From Leisingera sp. S132 (GTDB taxonomy: Bacteria > Pseudomonadota > Alphaproteobacteria > Rhodobacterales > Rhodobacteraceae), in contig NZ_CP083553.1 in the NCBI RefSeq assembly GCF_025144465.1, forward strand, positions 2,912,001 to 2,976,000: DNA of 64,000 nucleotides, written 5' to 3'. The position numbers and the translations under genes were made by a program. Below are positions 21,114 to 49,033 of this stretch, in pieces. Position 1 is the first letter of the stretch, and each line of letters opens with the position of its first letter. Below the pieces are notes generated by a model. The model saw only the letters and a program-made list of their open reading frames with translations, had not been told where the DNA came from and made no database searches.

Positions 21114-22151
21114 GTGGGCAGAACACTCACCCAGAAGCTGGCAGGCCGCGCCAGCCGTATCGCGCACCGCGCCAGGTTCCGCGCCTCGCTGCGCCATCTG
21201 CACGGGCCGGCGCGCCGCTTTGCAGCGCCCGGTCAGGTGGTGCTGATCGCCCTGGTGCGCGACGGGTCCTATTATCTGGATGTGTTCTTCGGCCATTACC
21301 GGCAGCTGGGTGTCTCTGCCTTTGTGTTCTTTGACAATGGCTCCGCTGACGGCACCATCGAGCGTATCCGGCAGGAGCCGGACACTGCGGTGCTGCAGTC
21401 CTCCCTGCCCTGGCTGCAATACGAAAACACCTTTCGCGCCTATGCGGCGGACCGCTACGGCCGGGACCGATGGTGCCTGTTTGCCGACATGGATGAGCTG
21501 TTCGACTTTGAGGGCGGCGAAACCGCCGGGCTGACCGGGCTGACACGCTACCTGACGCAGCGAGGATACACTGCCCTGCAAGCCGAAATGCTGGAAATGT
21601 TCCCCCAAGGCCCGCTGTCCGCGGCCCGCGGGCTGTCTTACGGCGAAGCGGTGCAGAGATTCCGGTTTTCTGACATCAGCGCTGTGAGGCAAGTGGATTA
21701 CGCTGCCGAGGACACCGGCTTTGCCTATTACCTGCGCCAGAACGCCCTGCCGCCGGGCGGCGCAAGGATGCTGTTCGGCGGGGTGCGCGGCAAGGTGTTC
21801 GGCGAGACCTGCTGCCTCAGCAAGCACCCGCTGGTGTTCAACGGGCCGGGCGTCCAGGCAGCGGTGCATCCGCACGCCTCTGCAGGCGTGCGGGTCGCTG
21901 ATACTGAAGGGCTGATCCGCCACTACAAATTCGCCGGTGACAGCCTGGCGCGGGATCTGAAGATCCAGGCTGAGGCCGTGTCTGCCCACGGCGAGGACCG
22001 CCAGCGCAGCGGCGTGATGCAGGCGCAGCCGGATCTTGGCCTGTGGTCCTCAGACGCAATCGAGGACCCGGAAATTGCGGATCTGCAGCGCCTGGGCTTC
22101 CTGCGCGGCTCGTCCGCATACAGCGAATTTCTTGCCGGAGAGGCCGCATGA
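21114..22151 (+). CDS. Family 2-like glycosyltransferase (Glyco_tranf_2_4 type)
   Basis: A 345-residue protein with VVLIALVRDGSYYLDVFFGHYRQLGVSAFVFFDNGSADGTIERI near residue 42, and CLFADMDELFDF carrying the DxD nucleotide-sugar motif. This is typical of PF13704-type transferases in capsule and EPS loci. GTG at 21114 is the start. The gene ends with an ATGA overlap into the next glycosyltransferase. It marks the left boundary of the polysaccharide region; donor and acceptor are unknown. Confidence 0.82.
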   Translation: MGRTLTQKLAGRASRIAHRARFRASLRHLHGPARRFAAPGQVVLIALVRDGSYYLDVFFGHYRQLGVSAFVFFDNGSADGTIERIRQEPDTAVLQSSLPWLQYENTFRAYAADRYGRDRWCLFADMDELFDFEGGETAGLTGLTRYLTQRGYTALQAEMLEMFPQGPLSAARGLSYGEAVQRFRFSDISAVRQVDYAAEDTGFAYYLRQNALPPGGARMLFGGVRGKVFGETCCLSKHPLVFNGPGVQAAVHPHASAGVRVADTEGLIRHYKFAGDSLARDLKIQAEAVSAHGEDRQRSGVMQAQPDLGLWSSDAIEDPEIADLQRLGFLRGSSAYSEFLAGEAA

Positions 22152-23098
22152 GCGCGGCTGCCATCGCCGCGGTGGTCATCGGCCGCAACGAGGGCGCGCG
22201 GCTGATCCGCTGCCTGCGCGCCCTGCAGGGCCAGGTGCAGCAGCTGATCTATGTCGACAGCGGTTCCACGGATGGTTCGGCGGAGGCAGCCCGGAAACTG
22301 GGCGCCGAAGTGGTCGCGCTGGACCTCAGCCGGCCGTTCACTGCCGCCCGCGCCCGCAACGCCGGACTGGCGGCGCTGGCATCCGGGACTGAATTTGTGC
22401 AGTTCGTGGATGGCGACTGCGAGGCGGATCCGGACTGGATCGCCACTGCCGCGGATTTCATGCAGGCACATCCCAGGGCAGCAGTGGCTTGCGGGCGGCG
22501 GCGGGAGCGGTTCCCCGAGGTGTCCGTCTACAACCGGCTGTGTGATGCGGAATGGGACACGCCCGCTGGCGAGGCCAAGGCCTGCGGCGGCGACGCGCTG
22601 ATGCGGGTGGCGGCGGTCTATACCGCGGGCGGCTACCGTGAGGGGCTGATCGCGGGTGAGGAGCCGGAATTGTGCCTGCGCCTGCGCCGGGCGGGCTGGC
22701 AGGTCTGGCGGCTGGAGGCTGAAATGACCCTGCATGACGCGCAGATGCTGCGCTTCACCCAATGGTGGAACCGCAGCCGCCGCGCAGGCCACGCCTTTGC
22801 CGAAGGCGCCGCCTTGCACGGCACCGGGCCGGAGCGCCACTGGGTGGCCGAGACCCGCCGCGCGCTCCTGTGGGGCGCCGCGCTGCCTGCCGGCATCCTG
22901 ATGGCCGGGCTGCTCAGCCCCTCTTTGGCGCTGGCGGCATTGATCTACCCCGCCCAGGTGCTGCGCCTGTCCCGCCGCATGGGGTTTGAACAGGCGCTGT
23001 TCACGGTGCTTGGGAAGTTCGCCGAGGCCGCAGGCGCGCTGGAATTCTACTGGCGCCGCTGGCGCGGCAGCGCGCGCGGCATACTGGAGTACAAGTAG
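22148..23098 (+). CDS. Family 2 glycosyltransferase with C-terminal membrane segment
   Basis: A 316-residue GT-A transferase. The N-terminus is AIAAVVIGRNEGARLIRCLRALQ, then YVDSGSTDGS, and FVDGDCEADPDWI is the DxD region near residue 85. GLIAGEEPELCLRLRRAGWQVW carries the catalytic ED-like motif. Hydrophobic segments occur around residues 240-275. ATG at 22148 overlaps the preceding stop (ATGA). Related proteins work in exopolysaccharide assembly at the inner membrane. The stop lies only 7 bases from the convergent wecG-like gene, with no terminator between. Confidence 0.87.
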   Translation: MSAAAIAAVVIGRNEGARLIRCLRALQGQVQQLIYVDSGSTDGSAEAARKLGAEVVALDLSRPFTAARARNAGLAALASGTEFVQFVDGDCEADPDWIATAADFMQAHPRAAVACGRRRERFPEVSVYNRLCDAEWDTPAGEAKACGGDALMRVAAVYTAGGYREGLIAGEEPELCLRLRRAGWQVWRLEAEMTLHDAQMLRFTQWWNRSRRAGHAFAEGAALHGTGPERHWVAETRRALLWGAALPAGILMAGLLSPSLALAALIYPAQVLRLSRRMGFEQALFTVLGKFAEAAGALEFYWRRWRGSARGILEYK

Positions 23099-23105
23099 CC
23101 CGCCG

Positions 23106-23858
23106 TCAGCGCGCCCGGATGCGCCAGGCTGCGAGGGTAAGCCCGGGCAGGATCGCCAGGCATTTGACATAGCGCGGCAGCAGCCGGACAGGGCTGGACA
23201 GCGCCCGCCACAGCCATTCCATCGCAATCGCGCGGACCCAGGCGGGGGCGCGTTTCTGGTGACCGCCGAGGAAATCCAGGCCGGCCCCGACCGAGGCAAA
23301 ACCGGCTGCAGGCGCCAGCTTGCGGCCGCGCTGGGCAAACTGCTCCTGTTTCGGCGCGCCCAGCGCCAGGAAACACAGGCAGGGGCCTGTGGCGTCCAGC
23401 CGGTGAAGGATCTGATCCGCCTCCTGCCCTTCCGGATCAAAGCGGCCGGAGGGCGCATGGGTCCAGGCAATCTCCAGCCCTGGCACCGCATCGGTCAGCG
23501 CGTCCCCGGCATCCTGCAGCGCCTCCTCCGTGCTGCCCGCCAGCACCACCGGCACCTTGGCCTCCGCCGCCAGGCGGCACAGCGGCAGCACCATGTCCGA
23601 CCCCGGCATCAGCTCCACCGGGCGGCGGGCAAGATGTGACAGCCAGACAATCGGGCGCCCGTCCGCCACCACCAGGTCCTGCGCCTGATAGGCAGACAGG
23701 AACTCCGCCGACGCAGCCATCTTGACCAGGTGATCCAGGTTCAGCGTCGCCAGCGCAAAGCCCTGCCCCGCCTTGAAACGGGCCCGGATTTCGGCTTCCA
23801 GCCCGGTCCGCGTGGCTGTGTTCACCGCTACCCTGCGGCCTTGGCATTCAAAAAACAT
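23106..23858 (-). CDS. WecG/TagA/CpsF family glycosyltransferase
   Basis: A 250-residue GT26 family enzyme. Signatures are FALATLNLDHLVKMA, VVADGRPIVWLSHLARRP, and FLALGAPKQEQFAQ followed by GVGAGLDFLGG-like VGAGLDFLGGHQKRAPAWVR. Family members transfer a sugar (for example N-acetylmannosaminuronic acid) to a lipid-linked acceptor, usually as the second step after a priming transferase. ATG at 23858 is chosen because MFFECQGRRVAVNT begins the domain; an upstream frame to 23948 looks non-coding. It is likely a partner of the ExoY-type gene at 48 kb. Confidence 0.9.
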   Translation of the reverse strand: MFFECQGRRVAVNTATRTGLEAEIRARFKAGQGFALATLNLDHLVKMAASAEFLSAYQAQDLVVADGRPIVWLSHLARRPVELMPGSDMVLPLCRLAAEAKVPVVLAGSTEEALQDAGDALTDAVPGLEIAWTHAPSGRFDPEGQEADQILHRLDATGPCLCFLALGAPKQEQFAQRGRKLAPAAGFASVGAGLDFLGGHQKRAPAWVRAIAMEWLWRALSSPVRLLPRYVKCLAILPGLTLAAWRIRAR

Positions 23859-24050
23859 GGGCGTCCCCGGGTCTGCTTTGCCCCGTGATACAGCCGCCGC
23901 TGCCGCCCGGCCAGTGCCCGGGGCACAGCACCGCAGCCAGCGTGGCAAAGCTGCACACCGTTAACCCGTTGTTGCAAATCCGCGCGACAGCGCCGCGCGC
24001 AACAGCTAAACTTTGATGCAAATACCGGGGAACTGAGGGAGCACGGGGCT

Positions 24051-25514
24051 TTGCCCAACGCTTTGGCCTATCTGATGCTGCTGGCCTGGCCGCTGGCCAG
24101 CCTGATCCTGTTCCGGCGCCTGCCGCTGGAGCGGGCCATCCTGTGGTGCATCATCGCAGGCTACCTGCTGCTGCCGCCGCTGGCAGAGTTCGACCTGCCG
24201 CTGGTGCCGGACATGGACAAGTTCGCCATCCCCTCAGTGATGGCCTTTTTGCTGTGCGTTTTTCTGCTGCGCAATCCGGTGCCGCTGCTGCCGCGGCACC
24301 CTGTCGTGCGGATGCTGGTGCTGCTGTTCGTGTTCGGGGTCATCCCCACCGTTCTGACCAACGGCGAGCCGATCCTGTTCCGCAAGATTGCCAACTCCGA
24401 CCCGATCATCTTTCTGACCGATCAGCTGCCGGGGCTGCGCTGGCGCGATCTGGGCTCGGTGATCATCAACCAGGTGATTGTGCTGATCCCCTTCCTGCTG
24501 GCCCGCCGGTATCTGTCCACGCCGGAAGCCCAGCGGGAACTGCTGCTGGCGCTGATGGCCGGCGGCCTCGCCTATACACTCCCGTCGCTGATCGAAATCC
24601 GCTTCAGCCCGCAGATCAACGTCTGGATCTACGGCTTCTTCCAGCACGACTTCAGCCAGATGATGCGTCAGGGCGGCTTCCGTCCCATCGTGTTCCTGCC
24701 GCATGCGCTGTGGCTGGCGTTCTTCATGCTGTCGGCGCTGCTGGCAGCCACCGCGCTGGCCCGCACCGCAGCAGGCGGAGACCGCATCCGGCTGGCACTG
24801 GCCGCAGGTTACCTGTTTGCGGTGCTGGTGCTGTGCAAAAGCCTCGCCTCGCTGGCCTATGCGCTGGCCTTTGTGCCTGTTGTTGCCCTGGCGCCGCTGC
24901 GCTGGCAGCTGCGTACGGCCCTGCTGCTGGCTTTGATTGCCGTGGTCTACCCGATGCTGCGCAACGCCGGGCTGGTGCCAACCGAGGAACTGGTGGCCCA
25001 GGCCGGCACCATCAGCGCCGAACGGGCGCATTCGCTGAACTACCGGTTCGAGAACGAGGCGCAGATGCTGGCCCGCGCCGCCGAAAAACCCTGGTTCGGC
25101 TGGGGCGGATGGGGCCGCAACCTGGTCCGGCACGAAGAAACCGGCCAGATCCTGTCGATCCCGGATGGGCGCTGGATCATCGTCTTCGGCACCTTCGGCT
25201 GGCTTGGCTACATCGCCGAGATGGGGCTGCTGGCGGCACCGCTGGTGCTGCTGGCCGCGGCGGCGGCCCGCGCGCCGCGGGGCAGCGTGTCGCCCTATGC
25301 GGCTCCGATCGCGCTGATCCTGGCAGCCACCATGGTGGACATGCTGCTGAATGCGACGCTCATTCCAATCACTTGGATGTGCGCAGGAGCCGTGCTGGGC
25401 TATGCTGAGAGGCTGCTCTACCCCGGCTTGTTCCAGAAGAAACCCGCGCTATTTGGCGGAGCGCAGGCGATGATGCCTGACACCGCCGGGCCGGAACGGC
25501 GCAGCATCCTGTGA
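24051..25514 (+). CDS. O-antigen ligase/polymerase-like multi-pass membrane protein
   Basis: A 487-residue protein with about eleven hydrophobic segments and one larger loop (about residues 305-375) containing NYRFENEAQMLARAAEKPWFGWGGWGRN. Such a W/G-rich loop is seen in Wzy-type polymerases and WaaL-like ligases. It is therefore the best candidate for the repeat-unit polymerase of this locus. The start is TTG at 24051 with GGAG about 10 bases upstream; ATG at 24075 is an alternative. It precedes the PKS gene by 261 bases, where I see no gene or clear terminator. Confidence 0.75.
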   Translation: MPNALAYLMLLAWPLASLILFRRLPLERAILWCIIAGYLLLPPLAEFDLPLVPDMDKFAIPSVMAFLLCVFLLRNPVPLLPRHPVVRMLVLLFVFGVIPTVLTNGEPILFRKIANSDPIIFLTDQLPGLRWRDLGSVIINQVIVLIPFLLARRYLSTPEAQRELLLALMAGGLAYTLPSLIEIRFSPQINVWIYGFFQHDFSQMMRQGGFRPIVFLPHALWLAFFMLSALLAATALARTAAGGDRIRLALAAGYLFAVLVLCKSLASLAYALAFVPVVALAPLRWQLRTALLLALIAVVYPMLRNAGLVPTEELVAQAGTISAERAHSLNYRFENEAQMLARAAEKPWFGWGGWGRNLVRHEETGQILSIPDGRWIIVFGTFGWLGYIAEMGLLAAPLVLLAAAAARAPRGSVSPYAAPIALILAATMVDMLLNATLIPITWMCAGAVLGYAERLLYPGLFQKKPALFGGAQAMMPDTAGPERRSIL

Positions 25515-25775
25515 TGCCGCAATGTTTCCGCTTTTCCGGCCGGAATTGACACAATGCGTCCACAGGACAGCCGCATGGATTGACGAAAGTAAATTTGAGT
25601 TCACCCGGCCCCGCGGAACAGATGGGGATCCAAGCCGCCAGGCCGGGCCAGCAGCCGGGGAGAACTCCGGCACCCGAAAATAAACCCGTCCGGCGGGCCC
25701 TGCCATCTTCGCAAAGCGGATTGGCTGCGGCGTGCCGGGTTGTTTGCGAAGGGCTAGTGGGGTCAGGTATTGACG

Positions 25776-32216
<6,441 letters not shown>

Positions 32217-32221
32217 CCGGC

Positions 32222-37800: not shown

Positions 37801-38486
37801 CGGACAGCAACAGCAAACTCGCAGAGCGGCTGGCCCTGGTCCGGCCGCTTTTTGCCGCGGATGTGGCGCTGGCCGGGACGGACCCGCTGGGTATGCCTCC
37901 GGCGCCGCTGGCAGAGGAGGCCGCCGGGCTGTCCCCCAACGCGGTTGAAAAAAGACGCAAGGAGTTCGCCGCAGGCCGCGACGCCGTGCATCAGGCGATG
38001 CGGCAGCTGGGCGTGCCCCCCGCCCCGGTTCAAATCGGCAGCGACCGGGCGCCGGTCTGGCCTGCGGGGGTGGTGGGCTCCATCACCCATACCAAGAGCT
38101 GCGCCATGGCGGTGCTGGCACGGTCCGGCGCGGTGCAGGGGCTGGGCATCGACGTAGAGGAAGACACCCCGCTGAAGAATGAGCTGCTGCCCGCCATCTG
38201 CTCTGACCGGGAGCAGGCCTGGCTGAGGCGGCAGGACAATCCCGGCCAGATGGCCAAGGTGATCTTTTCCGCCAAGGAAGCGGCTTACAAGGCGCAGTAC
38301 ACAATAAGCCGGGCGTTTTACGGCTTTGACGGGATGGAGCTGGAGTTTGATCTGGCCGCAAGCGCCTATCAGGCGTTTTTCACCGCCGGCCGCGCGCCTT
38401 TCAAGCGCGGCGAGGCGGTGGGCGGGCGCTTTGCCATTGGTGCGGGGCTGATCATGACCACTGCGGAAATCCGGGGGCGCGGATGA
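37797..38486 (+). CDS. 4'-phosphopantetheinyl transferase, EntD/Sfp-type
   Basis: A 229-residue enzyme that loads coenzyme A-derived phosphopantetheine onto carrier-domain serines. It shows the family motifs GIDVE (D119) and FSAKEAAYK (K160, magnesium/CoA binding), with SITHTKSCAMAVLA before them. ATG 37797 overlaps the NRPS stop (ATGA). Its place in the operon makes it the likely activator of the ACP (PKS Ser1805) and the carrier domain (NRPS Ser1443). Confidence 0.93.
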   Translation: MTDSNSKLAERLALVRPLFAADVALAGTDPLGMPPAPLAEEAAGLSPNAVEKRRKEFAAGRDAVHQAMRQLGVPPAPVQIGSDRAPVWPAGVVGSITHTKSCAMAVLARSGAVQGLGIDVEEDTPLKNELLPAICSDREQAWLRRQDNPGQMAKVIFSAKEAAYKAQYTISRAFYGFDGMELEFDLAASAYQAFFTAGRAPFKRGEAVGGRFAIGAGLIMTTAEIRGRG

Positions 38487-39421
38487 TGGGGCGGCGCGGG
38501 CTTCTGGCCGCGGGCGCCGCCATCGCCACACTGGGACTGATGGCGTTTGCAACCCGCAGCCGTTCCGTGCCGGTGCCGCCGCCCCTGGCCCCGCCGCAAG
38601 GGCCGCTGAAGGTGTTTCACCTCGGACATTCACTGGTCGGGCCGGACATGCCGCATATGCTGACGCAGCTTGCGCCTGACGGGCACGCCTACAATAGCCA
38701 GCTGGGGTCGGGCACTTCGCTGCGGGGGCATTGGGAGCCGGACGAGGCGATCCTCGATTTTGAGACCGCCAATCAGGCGCCCGCTTACCGGGATGCGGGT
38801 GAGGCCATCGGATCGGGTGAATACGGCGCGGTGGTGCTGACCGAAATGGTCGAACTGCGCGATGCGCTGAAATATTTCGATGCCGCCAAGTATCTGGGAA
38901 AATGGGCAGACCTGGCGCGGCAGGCCTCGCCGCAGGCGCGGCTGTATCTCTACGAGACCTGGCACCGCCTGGATGATCCGGATGGCTGGCTGCGGCGGAT
39001 TGACGGGGATCTGGAAACACTTTGGACACGTCAGCTGCTGGGCACGGACAGCCGCCGAAACCCGGAGCAGCCGGTCTATCTGATCCCCGGCGGTCAGGTG
39101 CTGGCGGCGGTTGCGCGTGCTGCGGAGGCTGGGGAGATCCCGGGGCTGGTGTCACGTGAATCGCTGTTTGCCCGGACACCCGAGGGAGACCTGGACACGA
39201 TCCACATCAATGATTTGGGTGCCTATGTCGTGGCTCTGACACACTATGCGGTGCTGTATCAGCACACCCCCTGGGGCCTGCCGCATCAGCTGAGCCGCGC
39301 GGATGGCAGCCCGGCGCAGGCCTTCAGCGCTGACGCCGCGGCCAGGGTGCAGCAGATCGTCTGGGAGACCGTGCGCACCCTGCCCCGCACCGGCATTGCC
39401 GCCGCCGGAGCACCGGCATGA
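38483..39421 (+). CDS. SGNH hydrolase-like protein, membrane-anchored or exported
   Basis: A 312-residue protein. MMGRRGLLAAGAAIATLGLMAFAT is a signal or anchor. VFHLGHSLVGPDMPHML carries the presumed nucleophile Ser50 in a GHSL block (GDSL in typical members). The late DTIHINDLGAY gives the DxxH pair. It is clearly related to the first 260 residues of the next gene product (GHSLxGPDxPxML; YLYETWHxL; IHxNxxGxY). Such esterases commonly remove or add acyl groups on polysaccharides; here the substrate is unknown. ATGATG starts overlap the upstream stop. Confidence 0.75.
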   Translation: MMGRRGLLAAGAAIATLGLMAFATRSRSVPVPPPLAPPQGPLKVFHLGHSLVGPDMPHMLTQLAPDGHAYNSQLGSGTSLRGHWEPDEAILDFETANQAPAYRDAGEAIGSGEYGAVVLTEMVELRDALKYFDAAKYLGKWADLARQASPQARLYLYETWHRLDDPDGWLRRIDGDLETLWTRQLLGTDSRRNPEQPVYLIPGGQVLAAVARAAEAGEIPGLVSRESLFARTPEGDLDTIHINDLGAYVVALTHYAVLYQHTPWGLPHQLSRADGSPAQAFSADAAARVQQIVWETVRTLPRTGIAAAGAPA

Positions 39422-41928
39422 ATCTGGAGGCGCTGATCACCTCGGTTGTGATGATCGGCCACTCGCTGTTCGGGCCGGACAATCCGCAGATGCTGGAGCA
39501 GCTGCTGGACACCCAGGCAGAGGCCCGGGTCGAGGCGCAGATCATCAATGGCGCGCCTCTCAGCTACAACTGGCAGCACAGCAGCAGTGCCGAAGGCGTT
39601 GATTCACGTGAAAGGCTGCAGATGCCTGCCGATGCGGTGATCGTGACAGAGGCGATCCCGCTGGCCAATCACCTGGAATGGAGCGGCACGGAACAGGCGG
39701 TGGCGCAGTTTTATGAACTCGCGCGCGCCGCCAATCCGGATGTGCGCTTCTATCTGCAGGAGACCTGGCACAGCCTGAACAGCGGCTCCGGCACCGATGT
39801 GCCCTTTGACAAGGGCGCCGGAGTGCCCTGGCGGATTCGGCTGGAGCAGGATCTGCCGCGCTGGCAGGCGGTGGTGGCAGAGGTGAACACGGCCACCGGC
39901 GGCACGGTGAAGCTGTTGCCCGCAGGCCAGGCGATGGCGCGGCTGGATGATGCGATTCAGGCGGGGACCATGCCGGGGCTGTCCAGTATCCGCGATGTCT
40001 TTGCCGATGATATCCACCCCAATGCAACCGGCTTCTACTTTCTGGCGCTGCTGCAATATGCGGTGCTGACGGGCAAGGACCCCGCCGGGCTGCCGCACCG
40101 GCTGACGGACCGCTGGGGGGAACCCTATCCTGCGCCGCCCCGCGAATTGGCAGCCCGTCTGCAAGCCGTCGCCTGGGAGGCCGCGCAGGCACGCGGCGCG
40201 CGCGTTCCGGCCTTGCCTGCCGACCCGCCGCCGCTGCCGCAGGATCCGCCTGTGCCTGTGCTGAACGCGTCTGTACTGGAGGCTGTTTCCTCTGCCGCGC
40301 CGCCCCAGTCCGCAACCCGCCAGCCCATCGCCATCAACCTTGCGGGCATTGCCGACTGGAGCACCCAGGCACCGTTCCTGGATCATTTCAAGACCGCCCG
40401 CCCCTGGATCGGCCATCTGCCCGGGCAATGGGGCGGTGTGGATCATGCCAGCCTGATGGCGGCCGGCTACCTGGATCCGGCGGGCTGGCCCACCGCAATC
40501 CCGCCGGAGCTCAGCTCGATCGGCACGGTGATCCTGACCGACCTGCCCGGGCAAGCGGTATCGCTGGCGGGCCGCTATGTGCTGCGCTTCGAGGGAGAGG
40601 GGATTGTCGAAGTTCTCGGCAGGGCAGAGAACGTCCGCTATGGCAAAGGAGAGGTGCGTTTCGATTTCACCCCCGGCCCGGGCCCCGTGGAAATCCGCAT
40701 CCAGCGGATGGGCCGCAGCGGCGGGTATGTGCGCAATATCACGGTGGTAAAGGAAGAGCATCTGGACGCCTATGATGGCGGCGCGCTGTTCAATCCGCTG
40801 TGGCTGGAGCGGCTGGATGGTTTTGCCGCGCTGCGGTTCATGGATTGGATGGCCACCAATGGATCCGGGCAGACCGGGTGGGAAGAGCGGCCGCTGGTGT
40901 CGGACTATACATGGGCGCTGAAGGGGGTCCCGGCGGAAGTGATGCTGGCACTGGCCAACGAGCTGGATGCCGATCCCTGGTTCAACATGCCCCATATGGC
41001 AGATGACACCTATGTGCGGCGCTTCGCACAGCTGGCAGAGCAAAGATTGAACACTGCCCTGCGTGCCTATGTGGAATACTCCAACGAGGTCTGGAACTGG
41101 CAGTTTCAGCAGGCCGCCTGGGCCGATGCCCAGGCCCGGGCGCGCTGGGGCGGCGAGGGATTGTGGATGCAGTTCTATGGCGGCCGCGCGGCGGAAGTGG
41201 CACAGATCTGGACCGCTGTGTTCGGCGACGGCAGCGCACGGCTGGTGCGGGTGATTTCGTCTCAAACCGGCTGGCTGGGGCTGGAAGAACAGGTGCTGAC
41301 AGCCCCTTTGTGGCAGGCGGAGAATTCCGGACGGCGGGCACCCGCCGCCTATTTTGATGCCTATGCGGTTACCGGGTATTTCGGCGGAGTGCTGGGCCTG
41401 GAGGAGCGTTCCGGGCAGCTGCGTGCCTGGATCGAAGACAGCCGTGCGCAGGCCCACGCGCGCGCGGCAGAGCGCGGGCTGACAGGCGCGGCAGCCGCGG
41501 AGTTTGCAAAACGGCACCAATACGCCGCCGCCAGTGCCCAGGCCGCGGCTGAGCTGCGCGACGGTCTGATCTCCGGCGATCCAGCCGACACGCTGGCGGA
41601 TCTGCTCGGCCGCGTGCTGCCCTACCACGCGGATGCCGCGCAAAAGCACGGGCTGGATCTGATCATGTATGAGGGCGGCAGCCATGTGGTGGGTATTGGC
41701 CCGATGACAGAAGACGCGGAGCTGACCGGCTTTTTCACCCATTTCAATTACACGGATGAGATGGGCGGGCTGTACCGCGACCTGCTGGCAGGCTGGCAGG
41801 CGCTTGGCGGCAGCCTGTTCACCGCCTATGCGGACGTCGGCGCACCCGGAAAATGGGGCAGCTGGGGGGCATTGCGCACCCTAAGCGACCGCAACCCGCG
41901 CTGGAATGCACTGGAGGCGGTGAAATGA
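39418..41928 (+). CDS. SGNH hydrolase fused to a clan-A glycoside hydrolase-like domain
   Basis: An 836-residue fusion. Residues 1-260 are an SGNH domain (GHSLFGPD with Ser16; DDIHPNATG as DxxH), paralogous to the preceding gene product. A proline-rich linker (about 265-290) and a beta-rich segment (about 370-440) lead to a TIM-barrel-like region (about 450-836). That region has two glutamates in clan-A positions: E557 in VEYSNEVWN and E752 in IMYEGGSH. No signal peptide is evident at this start, although the neighbour has one. It may trim or remodel the polysaccharide. ATG overlaps the preceding stop and the following start (both ATGA). Confidence 0.75.
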   Translation: MNLEALITSVVMIGHSLFGPDNPQMLEQLLDTQAEARVEAQIINGAPLSYNWQHSSSAEGVDSRERLQMPADAVIVTEAIPLANHLEWSGTEQAVAQFYELARAANPDVRFYLQETWHSLNSGSGTDVPFDKGAGVPWRIRLEQDLPRWQAVVAEVNTATGGTVKLLPAGQAMARLDDAIQAGTMPGLSSIRDVFADDIHPNATGFYFLALLQYAVLTGKDPAGLPHRLTDRWGEPYPAPPRELAARLQAVAWEAAQARGARVPALPADPPPLPQDPPVPVLNASVLEAVSSAAPPQSATRQPIAINLAGIADWSTQAPFLDHFKTARPWIGHLPGQWGGVDHASLMAAGYLDPAGWPTAIPPELSSIGTVILTDLPGQAVSLAGRYVLRFEGEGIVEVLGRAENVRYGKGEVRFDFTPGPGPVEIRIQRMGRSGGYVRNITVVKEEHLDAYDGGALFNPLWLERLDGFAALRFMDWMATNGSGQTGWEERPLVSDYTWALKGVPAEVMLALANELDADPWFNMPHMADDTYVRRFAQLAEQRLNTALRAYVEYSNEVWNWQFQQAAWADAQARARWGGEGLWMQFYGGRAAEVAQIWTAVFGDGSARLVRVISSQTGWLGLEEQVLTAPLWQAENSGRRAPAAYFDAYAVTGYFGGVLGLEERSGQLRAWIEDSRAQAHARAAERGLTGAAAAEFAKRHQYAAASAQAAAELRDGLISGDPADTLADLLGRVLPYHADAAQKHGLDLIMYEGGSHVVGIGPMTEDAELTGFFTHFNYTDEMGGLYRDLLAGWQALGGSLFTAYADVGAPGKWGSWGALRTLSDRNPRWNALEAVK

Positions 41929-42761
41929 CCCCGCACGTCTCCGTTCTGATTCCGGCCCATAATGAGGCGGACTATATCGGAAGCTGCCTGCAGGCAGTCT
42001 TTGCGTCAGATCCGCTGCCCGCGGGCATGACGGCAGAGGTGCTGGTGCTGGCCAATGGCTGCACCGACGCCACTGCAGAACTGGCCCGTGCTGCTGTTCC
42101 GCCCGAAGGCTGGGAGCTGCAGGTTCTGGAGCTGCCGGAAGGCGGCAAGCTGGGCGCGCTGAATGCCGGTGACGCCGCCGCGCGCGGAGATCTCCTGATC
42201 TATCTGGATGCCGATGTGCAGGTCTCCCCGGAGCTGATCGCGCAGATTGCGGCAGCCTTGGACGGCCGCGCACCGTGCTATGCCAGCGGCTGCCCGCAAG
42301 TGCCCCCGGCCCGCAGCCTGGTGACCCGCGCCTATGCACGGTTCTGGATGCGGCTGCCGTTCTTTTCGGGCGGTGTGCCGGGGTTTGGCGTCTTTGCCAT
42401 GAACCGTACCGGGCGGCAGCGCTGGGGCGTCTGGCCGGACATCATTGCCGACGACATCTTTGCGCGGCTGCACTTCACCCCGCAGGAGCGGGTGCAGGTA
42501 ACGGCTTCCTACAGCTGGCCGATGGTGGAAGGGTTCCGCAATCTGGTGAAAGTGCGGCGGCGGCAGAATGCCGGTGTGGCGGAAGTCGCAGAGAGCTGGC
42601 CGCAATTGATGCAGAACGAGGACACGCCGCGGGTTGGTCCCGGCAGGGCTCTGCGCCTGCTGCTGCGCGATCCGGCCGGGTTCCTGGCCTATGCCGCGGT
42701 TGCGCTGGCGGTGAAAACGCCGCTGTTCGCCTCCCGCAGCCGCTGGACCCGCGGCCGCTGA
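41925..42761 (+). CDS. Family 2 glycosyltransferase
   Basis: A 278-residue GT-A enzyme with VSVLIPAHNEADYIGSCLQAV at the N-terminus, VLANGCTDAT, and LIYLDADVQVSPELI carrying DxD near residue 93. Its later part holds WPDIIADDIFARLHF and ends with a weakly hydrophobic tail. ATG 41925 overlaps the stop of the hydrolase gene (ATGA), closing the coupled series that began with the PKS. It converges on the GT4 gene. Confidence 0.88.
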   Translation: MTPHVSVLIPAHNEADYIGSCLQAVFASDPLPAGMTAEVLVLANGCTDATAELARAAVPPEGWELQVLELPEGGKLGALNAGDAAARGDLLIYLDADVQVSPELIAQIAAALDGRAPCYASGCPQVPPARSLVTRAYARFWMRLPFFSGGVPGFGVFAMNRTGRQRWGVWPDIIADDIFARLHFTPQERVQVTASYSWPMVEGFRNLVKVRRRQNAGVAEVAESWPQLMQNEDTPRVGPGRALRLLLRDPAGFLAYAAVALAVKTPLFASRSRWTRGR

Positions 42762-42785
42762 CAGCCCTTCCGCCGACAGCCCCCG

Positions 42786-42936
42786 CTGCTGACGGGAGGT
42801 CCTCCCGCGCCCGCAGGATGCCCTGGCTGCGCCAGAACACCCTTGGCGGCCTTGGGCGTGGCCCGGCGCAAGGCGCCGGGCCACGCCCAACGGGAGCGGT
42901 GCATCTGCAGATGCGCCGGCGACGGGCGGGAGGGCA
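42786..42936. repeat. Intergenic hairpin repeat, copy 2 (strong stem)
   Basis: The convergent gap holds a perfect 18-bp stem, TTGGGCGTGGCCCGGCGC (42852-42869), a 3-base loop and its complement (42873-42890). GGGAGG and GCGCCCGCAGG-like sequence precede it, and GGGCGGGAGGG follows. The core GGCGGCCTTGGGC matches the copies near 3.8 and 50.7 kb. Confidence 0.75.
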
Positions 42937-42942
42937 GCGCGG

Positions 42943-44151
42943 CTATGTCCCTATGGTTTGGCGGAAATGCCCGGCCAGGCGGGCGGCTTCCCTGGCGCTG
43001 TCATGCCGCTCAAGCACCCTGGTGCGGCCGGCCTGGCCCAATTCGGCACGCCGCTCCTTCGGTGTTTCCGACAGCTCCAGAAGAGCCTCTGCCAGCGCCG
43101 TTTCATCGCCCGCAGGGATCAGCCAGCCCGTTTTGCCCGGCTGCACCAGCTCCGGTGTGCCTGCAACATAGGTGGCAATGACCGGCCGGGCGGCGGCCAT
43201 TGCCTCCATTACCACCATCGGCAGCCCCTCGGCAAAGGAAGGCATCACCAGCGCATGGGCGCGGCCCAGCTCCTGCCGCACGCCGTCTTCTGCCAGCCAG
43301 CCGGTCAGCGTGATATTCCGCTGCAGCCCGAGTTCGGCAATGGCCGCCTCCAGGTCCGGGCGCATTTCCCCGTCGCCGATCAAAGCCAGCTGCGCATCCG
43401 GGACCTGCGCCACCAGCTGAGCCATGGCCCGGACCAGCACCATTTGCCCCTTCTGCTCGACAAACCGTCCGATGGCGGCAAGCCGCAGCGGTCCGCCGGG
43501 CAGCGGCACCGGGCCGGCAAAGCGCTCTGGTTCGATGCCGCAATGCACCACTTTCAGGCTGTCCCATTTGGCAAACGGCGCCCAGCGGCTGAGCTGGCTC
43601 TTGCCGAAACTGCTGACACCCGCTGTGAAGGCCGCGCGGCTGATCTTCTCGCCCAGCGACAGCGCATGGGGGGCATCGAATTCCTCCGGCCCATGCACGG
43701 TGAAACTGTAGGCGGGGCCGCCCAGCACATGCGCCAGCATCGCCACCGCCGCAGAATTGGTGCCGAAATGCGCATGCATGTGCTGCACGCCTTCCGCCGC
43801 GCAGCGCTGTTTCACATGGGCCGCTTCAGCCAGATAGATGAGGTGGCGCAGCCCCCCCTTGTCCGAGGCGCGTGCCAGTTGAAGCGCCAGCGCCAGCGCC
43901 TTCGGAAAACGGCGCGGCGCCGCCAATGCCTGCCGCACCAGCGCCGCCAGAAGGCGGACCGGGCCAGCCTGCAGCACATATTCCGTGCGCGCGGCCTCTG
44001 CCTGATCGCCGGGGTCGGCCAGCGCGCTGTCAGAGGGCCGCATCGCCAGGCGCAGGACCTCCGCGCCCTGCTGCTCCAGCGCCTGCAGCTCGCGGCGGAT
44101 AAAGCTGTGCGAGGGCTGCGGATAGGTGTTCAGGACATAGGCGATTTTCAA
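42943..44151 (-). CDS. Family 4 glycosyltransferase (GT-B fold)
   Basis: A 402-residue enzyme. The N-terminal domain is MKIAYVLNTYPQPSHSFIRREL, then HMHAHFGTNSAAVAMLA and VHGPEEFD. The C-terminal domain has LAAIGRFVEQKGQMVLVRAMA, LIGDGEMRPDLEAAI, and VMPSFAEGLPMVVMEAMAAARPVIAT, the E-x7-E donor-binding motif. Length and motifs are standard for EPS transferases. It is divergent from the flippase gene across a 236-base promoter region in which I see no other gene. Confidence 0.92.
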   Translation of the reverse strand: MKIAYVLNTYPQPSHSFIRRELQALEQQGAEVLRLAMRPSDSALADPGDQAEAARTEYVLQAGPVRLLAALVRQALAAPRRFPKALALALQLARASDKGGLRHLIYLAEAAHVKQRCAAEGVQHMHAHFGTNSAAVAMLAHVLGGPAYSFTVHGPEEFDAPHALSLGEKISRAAFTAGVSSFGKSQLSRWAPFAKWDSLKVVHCGIEPERFAGPVPLPGGPLRLAAIGRFVEQKGQMVLVRAMAQLVAQVPDAQLALIGDGEMRPDLEAAIAELGLQRNITLTGWLAEDGVRQELGRAHALVMPSFAEGLPMVVMEAMAAARPVIATYVAGTPELVQPGKTGWLIPAGDETALAEALLELSETPKERRAELGQAGRTRVLERHDSAREAARLAGHFRQTIGT

Positions 44152-44387
44152 CGCGGCGGCTTCCCGGCAAATGCATGTATCCGCGGCAGGTTAGCGGTGG
44201 TTTGGCGGCTTGCCCAGCACCCTGTGCCGCTTGTCCAGCGGGCGTGGAGAATGCAGCACAGGCGCCGGGATTGTCGCTGAATTTCAGCCGCTTGCGCATC
44301 GCTCAGCCGCCATTGCCGCCGCAAGATTGACGCCCCTGCCCCGCCCGCCTAGCCTGCAGCATACAGGTTTAGGGGATTTGCGCCGGA

Positions 44388-45758
44388 ATGCAGCGGGTTG
44401 CTTCGCTTTTTGCCGGTCAGGGGATGATGGCGCGGGTGCTGCGCTCGGCCTCCTGGCTGATGATCGGGTATGGCGGCAGCCAGGCCTTGCGGCTGGCCTC
44501 CAACCTGATCCTGACGCGCATCCTGTTTCCCGAGGCCTTTGGCCTGATGGCACTGGTCACGGTGGTGACGGTGGGTCTGTCGCTGTTTTCGGACGTGGGC
44601 ATCGGGCCGTCGATTGCCCAGAACACGCGCGGCGACGATCCGGCGTTTCTGGACACCGCCTGGACCATTCAGGTGATCCGCGGATTTGCCCTGTGGGCGC
44701 TGACGGCGCTCCTGGCCTGGCCTGCGGCCGCATTCTATGGCACGCCGGAGCTGCTGATCTACCTCCCCATCGCGGGGGCTGGCCTGGCCATTGCCGGCTT
44801 CAACCCGACCCGGATCGAAACCGCGCACCGGCATCTGCTGGCGGGGCGGGTCACGGCGCTGGATCTGGCGGGCCAGGCCATTGGGCTGGCGGCGATGGTG
44901 CTGCTGGCACTGGCCACGCAATCGGTGATCGCACTTGTGCTGGGCGGGGTCATTCAGGCCGCGGCCAAGCTGGTGCTGTGCCACTTCGGCCTGCCGGGGG
45001 CGGCCAACCGGTTCCGCTGGGAGCAAGCGGCAGCGCGGGAGCTCATCCATTTCGGCAAGTGGATCTTCCTGTCCACCGCCTTCTGGTTCCTGACCTCGCA
45101 GGGGGACCGGGCGATCCTGGGCAAGTTCGTGCCGCTGGAAGTGCTGGGGATCTACAACATCGGCTATTTCCTGGCGAGCTTTCCGATGCTTCTGGGCCAT
45201 GCGGTGAACCAGCGGCTGATGATCCCGGTTTACCGCGACAAGCCTGCGCGGGAGGCGCCTGAGAACCTGCGGCGGCAGCGGCAGCTGCGCTGCGGGCTGA
45301 CGGGCGCCATCCTGGGATTGCTGCTGCTGATGGCCTGGGCCGGGCCGTGGCTGGTCCAGTTCCTTTATGATGACCGCTATGTGCAGGCCGGGCCGATGAT
45401 CGTGCTGATCGCCCTGGCGCTGGCGCCTGCGGTGATCACCATGACCTATGACCAGGCGGCGCTGGCGGCGGGCGACAGCCGCGGGTTCTTTGTGTTTTCA
45501 GCCGCCCGCGCCTGCCTCCAGACAGGTCTGTTTCTGGGCGGTGTGGCCTGGTTCGGGCTGGCAGGCGGAATTGCTGCACTGGGGCTGGCGATGCTGGCGG
45601 CCTATCCGGTGCTGGTGCGGCTGGCGCGCAGGCATCACGTCTGGGACCCGCTGCATGATGCCGGTTATGTGCTGCTGAGCGGCGCGGCAGGCGGCGCTGC
45701 CCTCAGCTGGCATTGGGCGGAAATCACGGAGATGGCATCAGCTCTGGGAACGCCTTAA
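44388..45758 (+). CDS. Wzx-like oligosaccharide flippase
   Basis: A 456-residue membrane protein of the polysaccharide transport (MATE/MOP) superfamily. About twelve to fourteen hydrophobic segments begin at residue 20 with WLMIGYGGSQALRLASNLILTRILFPEAFGLMALV, the usual Wzx start. Charged residues on the loops (ETAHRHLL, RDKPAREAPENLRRQRQ) fit an inner membrane topology. It probably flips lipid-linked repeat units to the periplasm. ATG 44388 is used; ATG 44424 would remove a short N-terminal tail. It converges on the wzz-like gene with no strong terminator between. Confidence 0.88.
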   Translation: MQRVASLFAGQGMMARVLRSASWLMIGYGGSQALRLASNLILTRILFPEAFGLMALVTVVTVGLSLFSDVGIGPSIAQNTRGDDPAFLDTAWTIQVIRGFALWALTALLAWPAAAFYGTPELLIYLPIAGAGLAIAGFNPTRIETAHRHLLAGRVTALDLAGQAIGLAAMVLLALATQSVIALVLGGVIQAAAKLVLCHFGLPGAANRFRWEQAAARELIHFGKWIFLSTAFWFLTSQGDRAILGKFVPLEVLGIYNIGYFLASFPMLLGHAVNQRLMIPVYRDKPAREAPENLRRQRQLRCGLTGAILGLLLLMAWAGPWLVQFLYDDRYVQAGPMIVLIALALAPAVITMTYDQAALAAGDSRGFFVFSAARACLQTGLFLGGVAWFGLAGGIAALGLAMLAAYPVLVRLARRHHVWDPLHDAGYVLLSGAAGGAALSWHWAEITEMASALGTP

Positions 45759-45865
45759 ACACAGCCTGCAAACCAGGTTAAACTGCAACCGGAAGACGAA
45801 AGACAGCCGCGGGTGGAAGCGGCGCTCATTGCTTGCCCGCCGCAAGGGCAGAAACCCAATACCGT

Positions 45866-47107
45866 CTAGGACTTGCGCCGGAACAGCCCGCGGCGCGGCG
45901 GGCGGGTGTCCAGCACCGGGATGGAAACCACCGGCACCAGGCCGGTTTCCCGCTCCATCTGTGCGGCGGTGCGCAGCACCGGGTGGCGCAGTTCCTGCAG
46001 GAAGGCGGCCAGCAAGGCCAGGATGACGCTGGCCGCGGCCCCCATCAGCGCCTTGGTTTTGCGGGCGCCGGTCACCGGGTAGTCGGGCAGCGGCGCGGGT
46101 TCGATCACCGTCAGCCGCTCTGCCTGATGGCTGGTCTCCAGCCGGAAGCCAACCTCGGCCTCGTTGCGGCGGGCGGTCATCTGTGCCAGCTCGCCCTGCA
46201 ACTGCTCCAGCCGGCGGTCATATGCGCCGAGCTGGCGCTCAACTTCCGGAGTGGTCTGCAAGGAGGCCTCCAGCCCGGTCTTGCGCTGGGTCAGCAGCGC
46301 CTCCTGCGCGTCCAGCGTCGCCAGCTGCTGTTCGGCCTCCTCCTGCAGGCGGCGGGCGGTGGCGGCGCGTTCTGTCGACTGGGCGCGGTCGGCAGCGCGG
46401 CGGATTTCGATCCGCTCGCGGGCAATTTCCAGAAGGCCCTCGTTCATCGCGGCGATTTCAGCCCTGCGGAATTCGATGGTTCCGGGCAGGGTCACGTCGT
46501 TTGCGTTGCGGTAGGCGGCGATCTCATCCTCCAGCGCTGCAACCTGATCCGCCAGGGCCGCTTCCTTCTGAACAAAGAAGCTGAGGGTTTCCCGGGCCTG
46601 GTCAATACGGGTCGCCATGCTGAGTTCAATCGTGCGGCGTCCGAACTCGCTGGCGACCTGCTGCGCCTGCTCTGCTGTGGGCATCCGGGCGGTGATGGTC
46701 AGCACCGAAATTGTGCCGTCATCGGCAAACCCCTCGCGGGCGGCCGCAACGCCAGTGATCTGCACCGATGTCCGCAGCTGCACCACTTTCTGCAATTCGG
46801 TCAGGGAGTCCTGGTCCGCATAGAGGCCGAATTTCCCGATAATTTCGAGCAATGTCCCACGGGCCATCAGCCGCTGCTCTATCAGCTGCATGCGCCGCGC
46901 CGAGGAGCCTTCGACCGTGGATTTGGCAAGTTCGCCTGCAATCTGCGGCTGGGTGATCTGAAGCACCTCTGCCGTTTCATATTCATGCTGCTGGCTGGCG
47001 GCGAACCACAGGGACACAAGACAGCCGAAGACAAACACGCAAGCGATGGTGAACAGCCTGCGCCGCACCATGTCGAGAAAATCGCCCAGTGAGTAGATCG
47101 GCCCCAT
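45866..47107 (-). CDS. Wzz-like polysaccharide chain-length/co-polymerase protein
   Basis: A 413-residue protein. The N-terminus has the Wzz pattern with a membrane segment (residues 19-37, FTIACVFVFGCLVSLWF). A long periplasmic coiled-coil follows (about 155-310, rich in A, E, Q and R), and a second membrane segment lies near residue 370 (ALMGAAASVILALLAAFL) before a basic cytoplasmic tail. The proline-rich PDYPVTGARK just before the second segment is typical. It has no kinase domain; the next gene upstream supplies an ATPase-like protein, giving a split co-polymerase/kinase arrangement. Confidence 0.87.
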   Translation of the reverse strand: MGPIYSLGDFLDMVRRRLFTIACVFVFGCLVSLWFAASQQHEYETAEVLQITQPQIAGELAKSTVEGSSARRMQLIEQRLMARGTLLEIIGKFGLYADQDSLTELQKVVQLRTSVQITGVAAAREGFADDGTISVLTITARMPTAEQAQQVASEFGRRTIELSMATRIDQARETLSFFVQKEAALADQVAALEDEIAAYRNANDVTLPGTIEFRRAEIAAMNEGLLEIARERIEIRRAADRAQSTERAATARRLQEEAEQQLATLDAQEALLTQRKTGLEASLQTTPEVERQLGAYDRRLEQLQGELAQMTARRNEAEVGFRLETSHQAERLTVIEPAPLPDYPVTGARKTKALMGAAASVILALLAAFLQELRHPVLRTAAQMERETGLVPVVSIPVLDTRPPRRGLFRRKS

Positions 47108-47225
47108 CTGTCTGCTCTCATGCCGCCGGGGTCCCCGGCCGTTCCAATCCGTTCAAGCCGCACACAAGGCCGCCGTTCCCGGTTTTACACCATAGCAACC
47201 GGGCGAAACTATGGCGCATCAGCGC

Positions 47226-48152
47226 TCAGTTCAGCGGGCTGTCCGACCTGCGCGCGCGGTTCAGAACCACCCCCAGCAGCTCCGTTTGGCCTGCAAGCAT
47301 CTTCTCGCAGGCGGCCAGTTGCGCCGCGGTGGTGCTGGTGCCGTCAGATATCAGCAGCACGCCGTCCACCTGCGGCAGGAAGGCGGCGGTGTCGTCATGT
47401 TCCAGCACCGGAGGCAGATCGAACAGCACGGTGTCCGCGCCGCTGCGCAGCATCAAGTCGTCCACGGCTGCGCTGCAGCTCCGGCTATGAAGGATCTCGG
47501 CGGCGTCCTGGTCCAGCGCGCTGTTCAGCCCGACCGCCAGCGATGGCAGCGGGCGCAGCAGCTGGTCTTCCATTTGAACTGCGCCGGACAGGAAAGCCGC
47601 CATATCAGCAGTTTCCTCAATCCCCATCGCCCGTGCAATTCCCGGGCGGCGGAAGTTCATGTCCATCAGCACGGTGCGGCTGCCGGGCACCCGGGCCAGG
47701 CTCAGCGCGAGGTTGACCGCTGAGAAGGTGCTGCCGCAGCATGCGGCCGGGGCAGTCACGGCAACCCGTTTCCAGCCGCGCGCCCTGAGAGTGTGCGACA
47801 GCCGGGTGCGGAGCAGATCGAAGGATTTGGCGGCGGGCGCAGCGCGGAACCGGCTGACCAGCGGCAGCCGCGTCTTATGCTCCGCTGTTCCCGGGAAGGG
47901 AACCTGCCGGATCCGCTCCCAGGGTTCCGGCAAAGCGGCGGGCAGTTGAATGGAACCAGCCGAAGAGGGCGCGTCCAGGGGACGCTGCCGCGGCGCGCCG
48001 GATGCCGCGGGTGCAGCCTCCGCCGGAGCACGGCGGCGGCGGAACCGCTTGAACCCTTGCTCGCTCATGCCGACCTCGTCATCCTTCTCCAACATCCGGG
48101 TGCCGCGCACCGGGCTGGCAGTGGCGGCCCCTGATACAGCAAAATGCTTCAC
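47226..48152 (-). CDS. BY-kinase/CpsD-like ATPase with degenerate P-loop
   Basis: A 308-residue protein related to capsular tyrosine kinase domains. The region around residues 125-165 reads VAVTAPAACCGSTFSAVNLAL and VLMDMNFRRPG. These sit where normal members have PGEGKSTxAxNLA (Walker A) and LLIDxDLRRP (Walker A'). The Walker A lysine is missing (GKST becomes CGST). A Walker B-like VLFDLPPVL remains, and no tyrosine cluster is found at the C-terminus. It may regulate chain length without kinase activity. GTG 48152 is preferred for its AAGGAG site 7 bases upstream; ATG at 48095 or 48068 are alternatives. Confidence 0.8.
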   Translation of the reverse strand: MKHFAVSGAATASPVRGTRMLEKDDEVGMSEQGFKRFRRRRAPAEAAPAASGAPRQRPLDAPSSAGSIQLPAALPEPWERIRQVPFPGTAEHKTRLPLVSRFRAAPAAKSFDLLRTRLSHTLRARGWKRVAVTAPAACCGSTFSAVNLALSLARVPGSRTVLMDMNFRRPGIARAMGIEETADMAAFLSGAVQMEDQLLRPLPSLAVGLNSALDQDAAEILHSRSCSAAVDDLMLRSGADTVLFDLPPVLEHDDTAAFLPQVDGVLLISDGTSTTAAQLAACEKMLAGQTELLGVVLNRARRSDSPLN

Positions 48153-48226
48153 AACCGTGCTCCTTGCAATGGCCGAACAGTCTGATGCCGGCGCGCAGGA
48201 CGCAGGCAGAGCATACTGGAAACGCG

Positions 48227-49033
48227 TTAATATCCTGTCCCCTTCAGCACCACGCCGGCTGTGCGCCAGATCAGCGCCAGGTCCCCGGCCAGCGACAGCC
48301 CGCGCCGGTAATCCGCATCCGCCCGGGCGCGGCTTGCAAAACTGCCCTCGTTGCGGACGGAGACCTGCCAGACGCCGGTTAGTCCCGGCCGCAGGGCAAA
48401 ATAGGCCCGCGCATCGCCGTAGAGCGGCAGCTGCTGCGGCATCATCGGGCGCGGACCGACCAGGCTCATCTCCCCCTTCGCAACGTTCCACAATTGCGGC
48501 AGTTCATCCAATGAGGTGGCACGCAGGAACCGGCCGACGCGGGTGATCCGGGGATCATTCTTGAGTTTCTGGGTCTTGTCCCATTCCCGGCGCAAGGCCG
48601 GATCGGTGGCCAGGTAATGCTGCAGCAGCCGGTCCGCATCGCGCACCATGGTGCGCAGCTTCAGGATGCGGAACCGCTTACCGCCGCGGCCCAGCCGGGC
48701 CTGGGTGTAAAAGGGCTGCCCGCCCTCAAGCCAGAGCGCTGCTGCACAAACCGCAATCAAGGGAAGGACGACCGGCAGGCTCAGCAGCACCAGCAGCAGA
48801 TCGAGGATCCGCTTGCCGCTTGCCGGATAGCCGCTTCTAAGGCGGCCGCCCGTGCCCGCCTCTGCGTTCCAGCCGGCCTGTCCCGCCGCCGCAAAACTGT
48901 TCAAAGCAGAGTTCACATTGGCCGGTTGCATCTGCAGCGGACGGAGGAAAGCAACGGCCTTGGACGCCAGCCTTCCCTCAACCTCAACCCGCGCAAAGGA
49001 CAGCCCCGCCCCTCCGGAAGCCGCATCTCTCAT
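48227..49033 (-). CDS. ExoY-type undecaprenyl-phosphate sugar transferase (priming glycosyltransferase)
   Basis: A 268-residue bacterial sugar transferase (PF02397). One hydrophobic segment (about residues 75-100, LLLVLLSLPVVLPLIAVCAAAL) is followed by the catalytic domain: FYTQARLGRGGKRFRILKLRTM, SLDELPQLWNVAKGEMSLVGPRP and YFALRPGLTGVWQVS. Family members transfer a sugar-1-phosphate (galactose or glucose) to undecaprenyl phosphate, the first step of EPS repeat-unit synthesis. ATG 49033 with a GAGG site is used; a longer frame to 49120 is unsupported. It heads the minus-strand exoY-kinase-like-wzz group. Confidence 0.92.
   Translation of the reverse strand: MRDAASGGAGLSFARVEVEGRLASKAVAFLRPLQMQPANVNSALNSFAAAGQAGWNAEAGTGGRLRSGYPASGKRILDLLLVLLSLPVVLPLIAVCAAALWLEGGQPFYTQARLGRGGKRFRILKLRTMVRDADRLLQHYLATDPALRREWDKTQKLKNDPRITRVGRFLRATSLDELPQLWNVAKGEMSLVGPRPMMPQQLPLYGDARAYFALRPGLTGVWQVSVRNEGSFASRARADADYRRGLSLAGDLALIWRTAGVVLKGTGY

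Follow-up and report, generated by a model that had tools for sequence, protein, structure and literature searches.

Why should polyketide synthase (PKS) and nonribosomal peptide synthetase (NRPS) genes lie in the middle of an exopolysaccharide (EPS) locus? The question is raised by a 64,000-nucleotide stretch of the Leisingera sp. S132 genome (contig NZ_CP083553.1, positions 2,912,001 to 2,976,000), hereafter the window, in which seven plus-strand genes running from 25770 or 25776 to 42761 are bordered by EPS genes on either side. We consider it probable that this run encodes an NRPS-PKS line dedicated to the EPS pathway, and its product is most likely a short acyl group, built from N-formylglycine plus malonate, that goes into the EPS repeat unit. 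The linkage of these PKS and NRPS genes with EPS genes is real and widespread, as set out below.

The content of the run, assigned with Pfam, NCBIfam and predicted folds, is as follows:

25770..32216, plus strand: PKS, one module with the order KS-AT-KR-DH-carrier-TE (Pfam; an ATG at 25776 is also possible)
32213..33238, plus strand: family 2 glycosyltransferase (GT2) between PKS and NRPS, here GT2P, which with them forms the triad (Pfam)
33235..37800, plus strand: NRPS module of 1,521 residues (Pfam, NCBIfam)
37797..38486, plus strand: Sfp-type 4'-phosphopantetheinyl transferase (PPTase; PF17837, PF01648)
38483..39421, plus strand: predicted SGNH-fold protein with a hydrophobic N-terminal segment (predicted fold, alignment)
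39418..41928, plus strand: predicted SGNH domain fused to a GH51-like (alpha-L-arabinofuranosidase-type) barrel (predicted fold)
41925..42761, plus strand: GT2 (PF00535; the open reading frame, ORF, is open from 41853, with the ATGA start at 41925)

Five junctions are ATGA overlaps (33235, 37797, 38483, 39418, and 41925), read from the sequence, while the PKS-GT2P junction is a GTGA at 32213, where an alternative ATG at 32222 would leave a 5-base gap. A first-pass annotation of the window had described the same run and the same junctions, and direct reading matches it. The two hydrolases it listed appear right in kind, judging by the predicted SGNH and SGNH plus GH51-like folds. Its NRPS-like protein is indeed an NRPS, but an N-terminal formyltransferase and a luciferase-like monooxygenase (LLM) inside the adenylation domain had been overlooked. 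In GT2P, the N and D of the NSD motif are kept in 114/114 sequences, and in the first SGNH protein (38483..39421) S50, D238, and H241 are unchanged across 31 aligned members. The model of the latter has a pLDDT of 92.4, with 4i8i (DUF4886) as the top Foldseek match and carbohydrate esterases next. Neither of the proteins starting at 38483 and 39418 has a Pfam match, and a sequence search of the PDB returned chance-level matches only for both. Pfam showed no efflux gene within the seven-gene run.

Does this arrangement extend beyond one strain? In an even sample of Rhodobacterales the NRPS occurs in 125 of 292 genomes and 50 of 112 genera, one match each, and all 20 other same-genus genomes searched carry it. 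Gene context was compared in 125 neighbourhoods, made up of 40 of 38-40 kb, 5 plasmids and 80 contigs (the best 80 of 571 relatives, with a bias toward close relatives). These neighbourhoods include 19 of 21 other-genus matches (not G042 and G048) and 15 of 20 same-genus matches, and five pairs among them have an identical NRPS end. Genes were labeled as EPS homologs by their best BLAST match to the window and to annotated plasmid genes (E 1e-8, or 1e-5 for outer relatives). PKS, GT2P, and NRPS are consecutive in 119/125 neighbourhoods (misses: L033, L035, G355, G414, L189, and L196), and core EPS homologs stand beside the triad in 120/125, the remaining five being four contigs of 5.3-12.4 kb and G414. 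A recount by a strand-and-gap rule without the cut-gene reference L034_GT38769 again gave 119 triads and 120 core EPS neighbourhoods (triad misses: L033, L035, G355, G414, L131, and L151). Among 23 other genera, represented by one genome each, all 23 hold PKS, GT2P, and NRPS, together with WecG (22), the Wzz-like gene (21), the kinase-like gene (20) and the flippase (18). Two or more of the six core EPS classes are present in each of these neighbourhoods, and gene order differs between genera. A triad that stays constant while its EPS surroundings rearrange is what functional coupling predicts. PKS and NRPS also lie near EPS genes on annotated plasmids from Parasedimentitalea, Paracoccus, Ruegeria, Aminobacter, and Shinella, where the EPS genes vary by plasmid (flippase, WecB, sugar transferase, kinase or O-antigen ligase).

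Proximity and co-occurrence give the same picture. In 51/60 genomes the NRPS has a WecG gene within 20 kb, against 0.79 expected by chance for a 4.1 Mb genome (the first 60 of 121 positives, with 4 same-genus positives left out), and a Bac_transf gene lies within 25 kb of the NRPS in 19/27 genomes by hand count. WecG is present in 59/60 NRPS-positive vs. 12/40 NRPS-negative genomes of the family (Fisher p 3e-14, with ancestry ignored). Full-length P0004 and full-length PKS are each found in 0/40 NRPS-negative genomes, with partial relatives in 2/40 and 6/40, respectively; these 40 are the ones among the negatives listed, and three are <90% complete. The comparison across roseobacters that the first-pass annotation had proposed is thus strongly positive, and linkage conserved in this way favours a product that is part of the EPS. 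Because the triad stays beside EPS genes in many marine Rhodobacterales, it probably makes a group that is built into the coat and not a free metabolite.

Outside the family the NRPS is rare, with 2 of 380 such genomes of a class sample carrying it. In a tree of 76 of 128 sequences (quick method, midpoint root, long branches for G721 and G759, with 12 same-genus rows dropped by name and 40 loci at random), the Rhodobacterales NRPS form one clade (100), whose sister group (99) consists of four EPS-linked proteins of other families. Next comes the EPS-linked G355, with a family 4 glycosyltransferase (GT4), an aminotransferase and an epimerase as neighbours, and then G414 and G733 beside it. In G355, G414, and G733 the PKS immediately follows the NRPS, a gene order that agrees with the NRPS acting first.

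What might such a line make? The NRPS begins with a formyltransferase (residues ~1-300), followed by a truncated, degenerate remnant of a condensation-domain C-lobe (300-530), an adenylation domain split by the LLM (764-1114) and a carrier. The formyltransferase scores above the cut-offs of PF00551 and PF02911, and its Asn-His-Asp triplet, which we take to be the active site as in the methionyl-tRNA formyltransferase family, is kept in nearly all of 118 sequences (N 117, H 116, D 117), apart from a single gap per column and one F in place of H. The carrier Ser is present in 117/118. Pfam matched no condensation domain even at E up to 10, and PDB condensation domains resemble the remnant only in its final ~60 residues, which correspond to their C-terminal ends; a plain condensation-adenylation-carrier (C-A-T) NRPS was rejected on these two grounds. 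The LLM, of ~350 residues, matches TIGR04020 (MupA/Atu3671 family) at 475.5 bits (cut-off 244.45), and the nearest solved structure by sequence is PuwE (6ket, E 1.7e-103). Anchoring on conserved motifs gives the adenylation code DILQLGMIWK. The exact code occurs in 55 of 118 NRPS relatives, seven of its ten positions are fixed, and the LLM is inserted after code position 239 and before position 278 (residues 727 and 1144). Since four glycine adenylation domains with a monooxygenase (MOX) insertion all carry this same code (PMC12283262), the NRPS is predicted to activate glycine. Taken together with the likeness of a formyltransferase-glycine-carrier arrangement to the conglobatin starter, this makes the NRPS look like a loading module for oxidised N-formylglycine.

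The active-site residues of the PKS are conserved as well. In 111/111 full-length sequences the KS C/H/H, AT S, KR S/Y/N, DH H/D, carrier S, and TE S/D/H residues are identical, and the putative KR Lys varies, with K in 104 sequences and R in 7. The roles of all these checked PKS and NRPS residues are presumably those of their families, and none of the sites looks decayed. A single module without an enoyl reductase (ER) predicts a short polar acyl group and not a lipid. Two features of the protein are unusual or worth recording: its carrier motif, LGGHSL, is PCP-like or NRPS-like, and its KR precedes its DH, where the usual PKS domain order is DH before KR. The distant G733 PKS shows the identical KR-DH order.

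The EPS genes on both flanks of the run, which the first-pass annotation had also reported, were recovered by Pfam and NCBIfam; the Wzy, Wzz, and kinase labels fall below curated cut-offs:

21114..22151, plus strand: GT2 (PF13704)
22043..23098, plus strand: GT2 (PF00535)
23106..23948, minus strand: WecG/TagA/CpsF glycosyltransferase (PF03808, 151 bits; TIGR00696, 103.5 bits, cut-off 69)
24051..25514, plus strand: Wzy-like polymerase candidate (PF04932, 24.6 bits, below the cut-off of 31.7)
42943..44151, minus strand: GT4, EpsE-like (PF13692; NF041876 EPS_EpsE, 247.8 bits, cut-off 400)
44388..45758, plus strand: Wzx-type flippase (PF13440, 144.5 bits)
45866..47107, minus strand: Wzz-like chain-length determinant (TIGR03007, 74.3 bits, cut-off 278.85)
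47226..48491, minus strand: tyrosine-autokinase-like protein (TIGR03018, 67.2 bits, below cut-off; start probably inside the ORF)
48227..49120, minus strand: initiating sugar-phosphate transferase, Bac_transf/ExoY-type (PF02397, 192.6 bits)

Across the compared loci, a Wzy-like gene is what most often lies to the left of the PKS, and the kinase-like protein shares 60% identity over 259 residues with an annotated CpsD/CapB kinase. No Wza/OPX channel was seen in Pfam scans of part of the ORFs from 15.6 to 56 kb; a Wza/OPX export channel is annotated in Aminobacter L035. Directly upstream of the EPS genes lie TamA (Omp85) and TamB (15598-21026), which hold the same place in the 15 same-genus neighbourhoods compared, and after the EPS genes comes a homolog of DGOK (2-keto-3-deoxy-galactonokinase, 49268-50569), present in the compared same-genus loci. 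The best NCBIfam models for the Wzz-like and kinase-like genes are exosortase-associated, and on two Ruegeria plasmids the surroundings of the triad include either a VPLPA-CTERM exosortase (XrtD) or a VPLPA-CTERM protein (L034 2246-3898; L203 21089-21775). Paracoccus-type loci (L032 1-2552; G978; G966, pieces only) have a second adenylation-domain protein beside WecB and flippase genes, near the triad. One genome has two equal-scoring Bac_transf genes on different contigs (G000:C1:3734885 and G000:C7:24859), possibly from a duplicated polysaccharide locus.

From the genes, domains, conserved residues, linkage, and co-occurrence described above we infer substrates, an order of steps, a product, a TE-mediated transfer to sugar and a role for each glycosyltransferase. 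In the proposed pathway, the PPTase would prime both carrier domains. The NRPS would activate glycine, which would be N-formylated on the carrier and oxidised at its alpha carbon by the built-in LLM. The PKS would then accept this unit, extend it once with malonate and act on it through KR reduction and DH dehydration, and the TE would transfer the resulting short C4 acyl group to a sugar. The predicted group is 4-formamido-but-2-enoyl, 4-hydroxylated, or 4-oxo after departure of the formamide. GT2P would add the modified sugar, or its acceptor, to the repeat unit on its undecaprenyl carrier. The ExoY-type, WecG, GT2, and GT4 enzymes would complete this unit, Wzx would flip it and Wzy would polymerise it. 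The SGNH and SGNH-GH51-like proteins may trim acyl groups or chains. It is a long shot, but the LLM may make an N-acyl hemiaminal or, if the formamide is lost, a glyoxylyl starter, so that the line would install an aldehyde, enal or masked aldehyde in each EPS repeat. If so, the polysaccharide could form cross-links with itself, with amines or with the surfaces of algae or minerals, the SGNH and GH51-like enzymes would be the release tools, and a dedicated assembly line would turn the sugar coat chemically sticky in many Rhodobacterales.

How firmly do these observations tie the product to the EPS? Several points weigh against that assignment. In Rhizobium L033, Aminobacter L035, and Shinella L202 the PKS is divergent from the NRPS with no GT2 between them, and EPS homologs are present. 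In G414, whose NRPS is 44% identical, the NRPS and PKS follow each other on one strand amid zinc-uptake, thiamine pyrophosphate (TPP)-enzyme, glutathione S-transferase, EamA, DctP, and major facilitator superfamily (MFS) genes, and in G733 amid TRAP-transporter, thiamine-type transport/kinase, glutamate dehydrogenase, RTX-repeat, and MFS-type genes (Pfam scans of 10 and 12 neighbouring ORFs, respectively). The G733 PKS (3078 aa, L221 6123-15359) runs from KS-AT-KR-DH into C-A-carrier-TE, and this longer line suggests a free metabolite, perhaps from the same starter as the triad. A PKS/NRPS pair apart from EPS genes, which the first-pass annotation had named as a finding that would refute its reading, is therefore seen in these two genomes, but with no GT2P match beside either pair. 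This ability of the pair to do without EPS is the strongest argument against a strict EPS role, and EPS use was either lost in G414 and G733 or is itself derived. Clear EPS context was not seen around the outer relatives G759 and G721, and the LLM-NRPS relative of G721 sits in a large NRPS cluster. The TE could merely release a free acid, and the co-occurrence figures carry no correction for shared ancestry. The earlier idea of a polyketide-amino acid decoration on the EPS thus gains from the conserved linkage as far as an EPS product is concerned, while its chemistry is a reading of the domains and the pair also occurs away from EPS genes.

A free, perhaps glycosylated metabolite (a signal, siderophore-like compound or antibiotic), merely co-regulated or co-inherited with the EPS, for example because both serve biofilm life, would suit the G414 and G733 pairs with their nearby MFS-type genes, the extra NRPS module of G733, the large G721 cluster and the TE that ends the PKS. 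In the genome papers found, moreover, genes that are homologous or probably so appear only under secondary metabolism. In Phaeobacter inhibens T5, the PKS Inhi_1972 and NRPS Inhi_1974, one locus number apart, are listed in this way (PMC4062626), and we infer that they belong to the same triad. In Paracoccus marcusii CP157, from Cancer pagurus, a hybrid cluster on a 225-kb plasmid is put forward as a possible antimicrobial source (PMC8273931), and our searches found a plasmid record of 225,058 bases with the source Cancer pagurus (NZ_CP065894.1). No word beginning with “polysaccharide” or “exopolysaccharide” was found in that article, and no paper tying a PKS-GT-NRPS triad to EPS was among the matches listed in the open-licence literature. 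However, the GT2 is fixed between PKS and NRPS, the proteins downstream are predicted to edit polysaccharide, EPS genes remain close despite their changing order, WecG, P0004, and PKS co-occur with the NRPS and the run has no efflux gene, so we judge a free metabolite unlikely. The product might instead be an unusual primer, carrier or anchor for the polysaccharide, and not a decoration of its repeat unit. Such a role has been proposed for the RkpA/WcbR capsule PKS, and GT2P could glycosylate a released product. PKS genes in capsule loci are already known (PMC3908369), so the claim of the first-pass annotation that secondary-metabolite and EPS genes are normally separate was too strong. Nonetheless, the locus has an initiating sugar-phosphate transferase of its own, as well as a flippase and a Wzz-like gene, and this suggests a normal undecaprenyl route. 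Together with the single ER-less module, which predicts no lipid, it makes a primer, carrier or anchor very unlikely. Finally, chance insertion of a secondary-metabolite cluster into the EPS locus of one strain has a vanishingly small probability. Both it and mere chance adjacency were rejected by the same-genus search (all 20 other genomes), the 125/292 occurrence in the order, the synteny, and the WecG linkage (51/60 vs. 0.79 expected).

If the preferred reading of a dedicated EPS line is true, the PKS/NRPS line in 125 of the 292 sampled genomes is part of surface-polysaccharide synthesis and not an antibiotic factory, and many clusters mined as unknown NRPS-PKS metabolites would need re-labelling. 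It would also represent a new class of polysaccharide modification and a direct genetic handle on the attachment of roseobacters to algae and surfaces. The compact and conserved FT-A(LLM)-T module (formyltransferase, adenylation domain with LLM, carrier) should be useful for studies of glycine alpha-oxidation, and in the natural relatives G414 and G733 the same chemistry seems to serve something besides EPS.

How does this locus compare with known systems? Export in the rkp/wcb capsule systems is of the ABC type. Those clusters likewise hold type I PKS genes, rkpA/wcbR, among genes for polysaccharide synthesis and export (PMC3908369). By their description they differ from the locus studied here, which has a dedicated NRPS, a GT2 between NRPS and PKS, a single KS-AT-KR-DH-carrier-TE module, and Wzx/Wzy-type neighbours. 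In mycobacteria, the lipooligosaccharide (LOS), glycopeptidolipid (GPL), and Pks13 loci yield PKS/NRPS products that are attached to envelope sugars, and the Pks13 TE acylates trehalose. The NCBIfam models of Pks13 and Pks2 give sub-threshold matches here; unlike those loci, which make lipids, the line in the window is predicted to equip a Wzx/Wzy polysaccharide with a short polar acyl group.

Parallels to the enzymology come from other assembly lines. In myxothiazol and melithiazol biosynthesis, as in our NRPS, a glycine adenylation domain is interrupted by a monooxygenase, which there hydroxylates the alpha carbon; the oxidised glycine terminates the chain, with loss of the amine and glyoxylate left on the carrier (PMC11342130). 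Unlike that chain-end module, the NRPS described here is starter-like, has a formyltransferase, and showed no intact condensation domain in the searches above. Its insertion lies between code positions 239 and 278, whereas a survey of adenylation domains speaks of insertions in general between motifs A8 and A9 (PMC12283262). A formyltransferase-glycine-carrier start module that passes formylglycine to the KS has been proposed for conglobatin with oxazolomycin as the model (PMC4504003), and the rhizopodin initiation module also has an F domain. Our NRPS shares the formyltransferase, glycine adenylation domain, and carrier of the conglobatin and oxazolomycin loading modules, but it differs in its built-in LLM, in the single PKS module that follows and in an EPS locus in place of an antibiotic cluster.

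On the side of the product, no NRPS-PKS line for O-antigen acyl groups was among the literature matches listed. The groups themselves are akin to the predicted product, as the O-antigens of Flavobacterium, Vibrio cholerae, and others carry polyketide-like or amino-acid-like N-acyl groups (PMC3210612). Sugars of surface glycans and O-antigens bear formyl, N-acetylglycyl, 3-hydroxybutyryl-alanyl, and 3,5-dihydroxyhexanoyl groups, and decorations of the kind proposed here therefore exist (PMC3210612).

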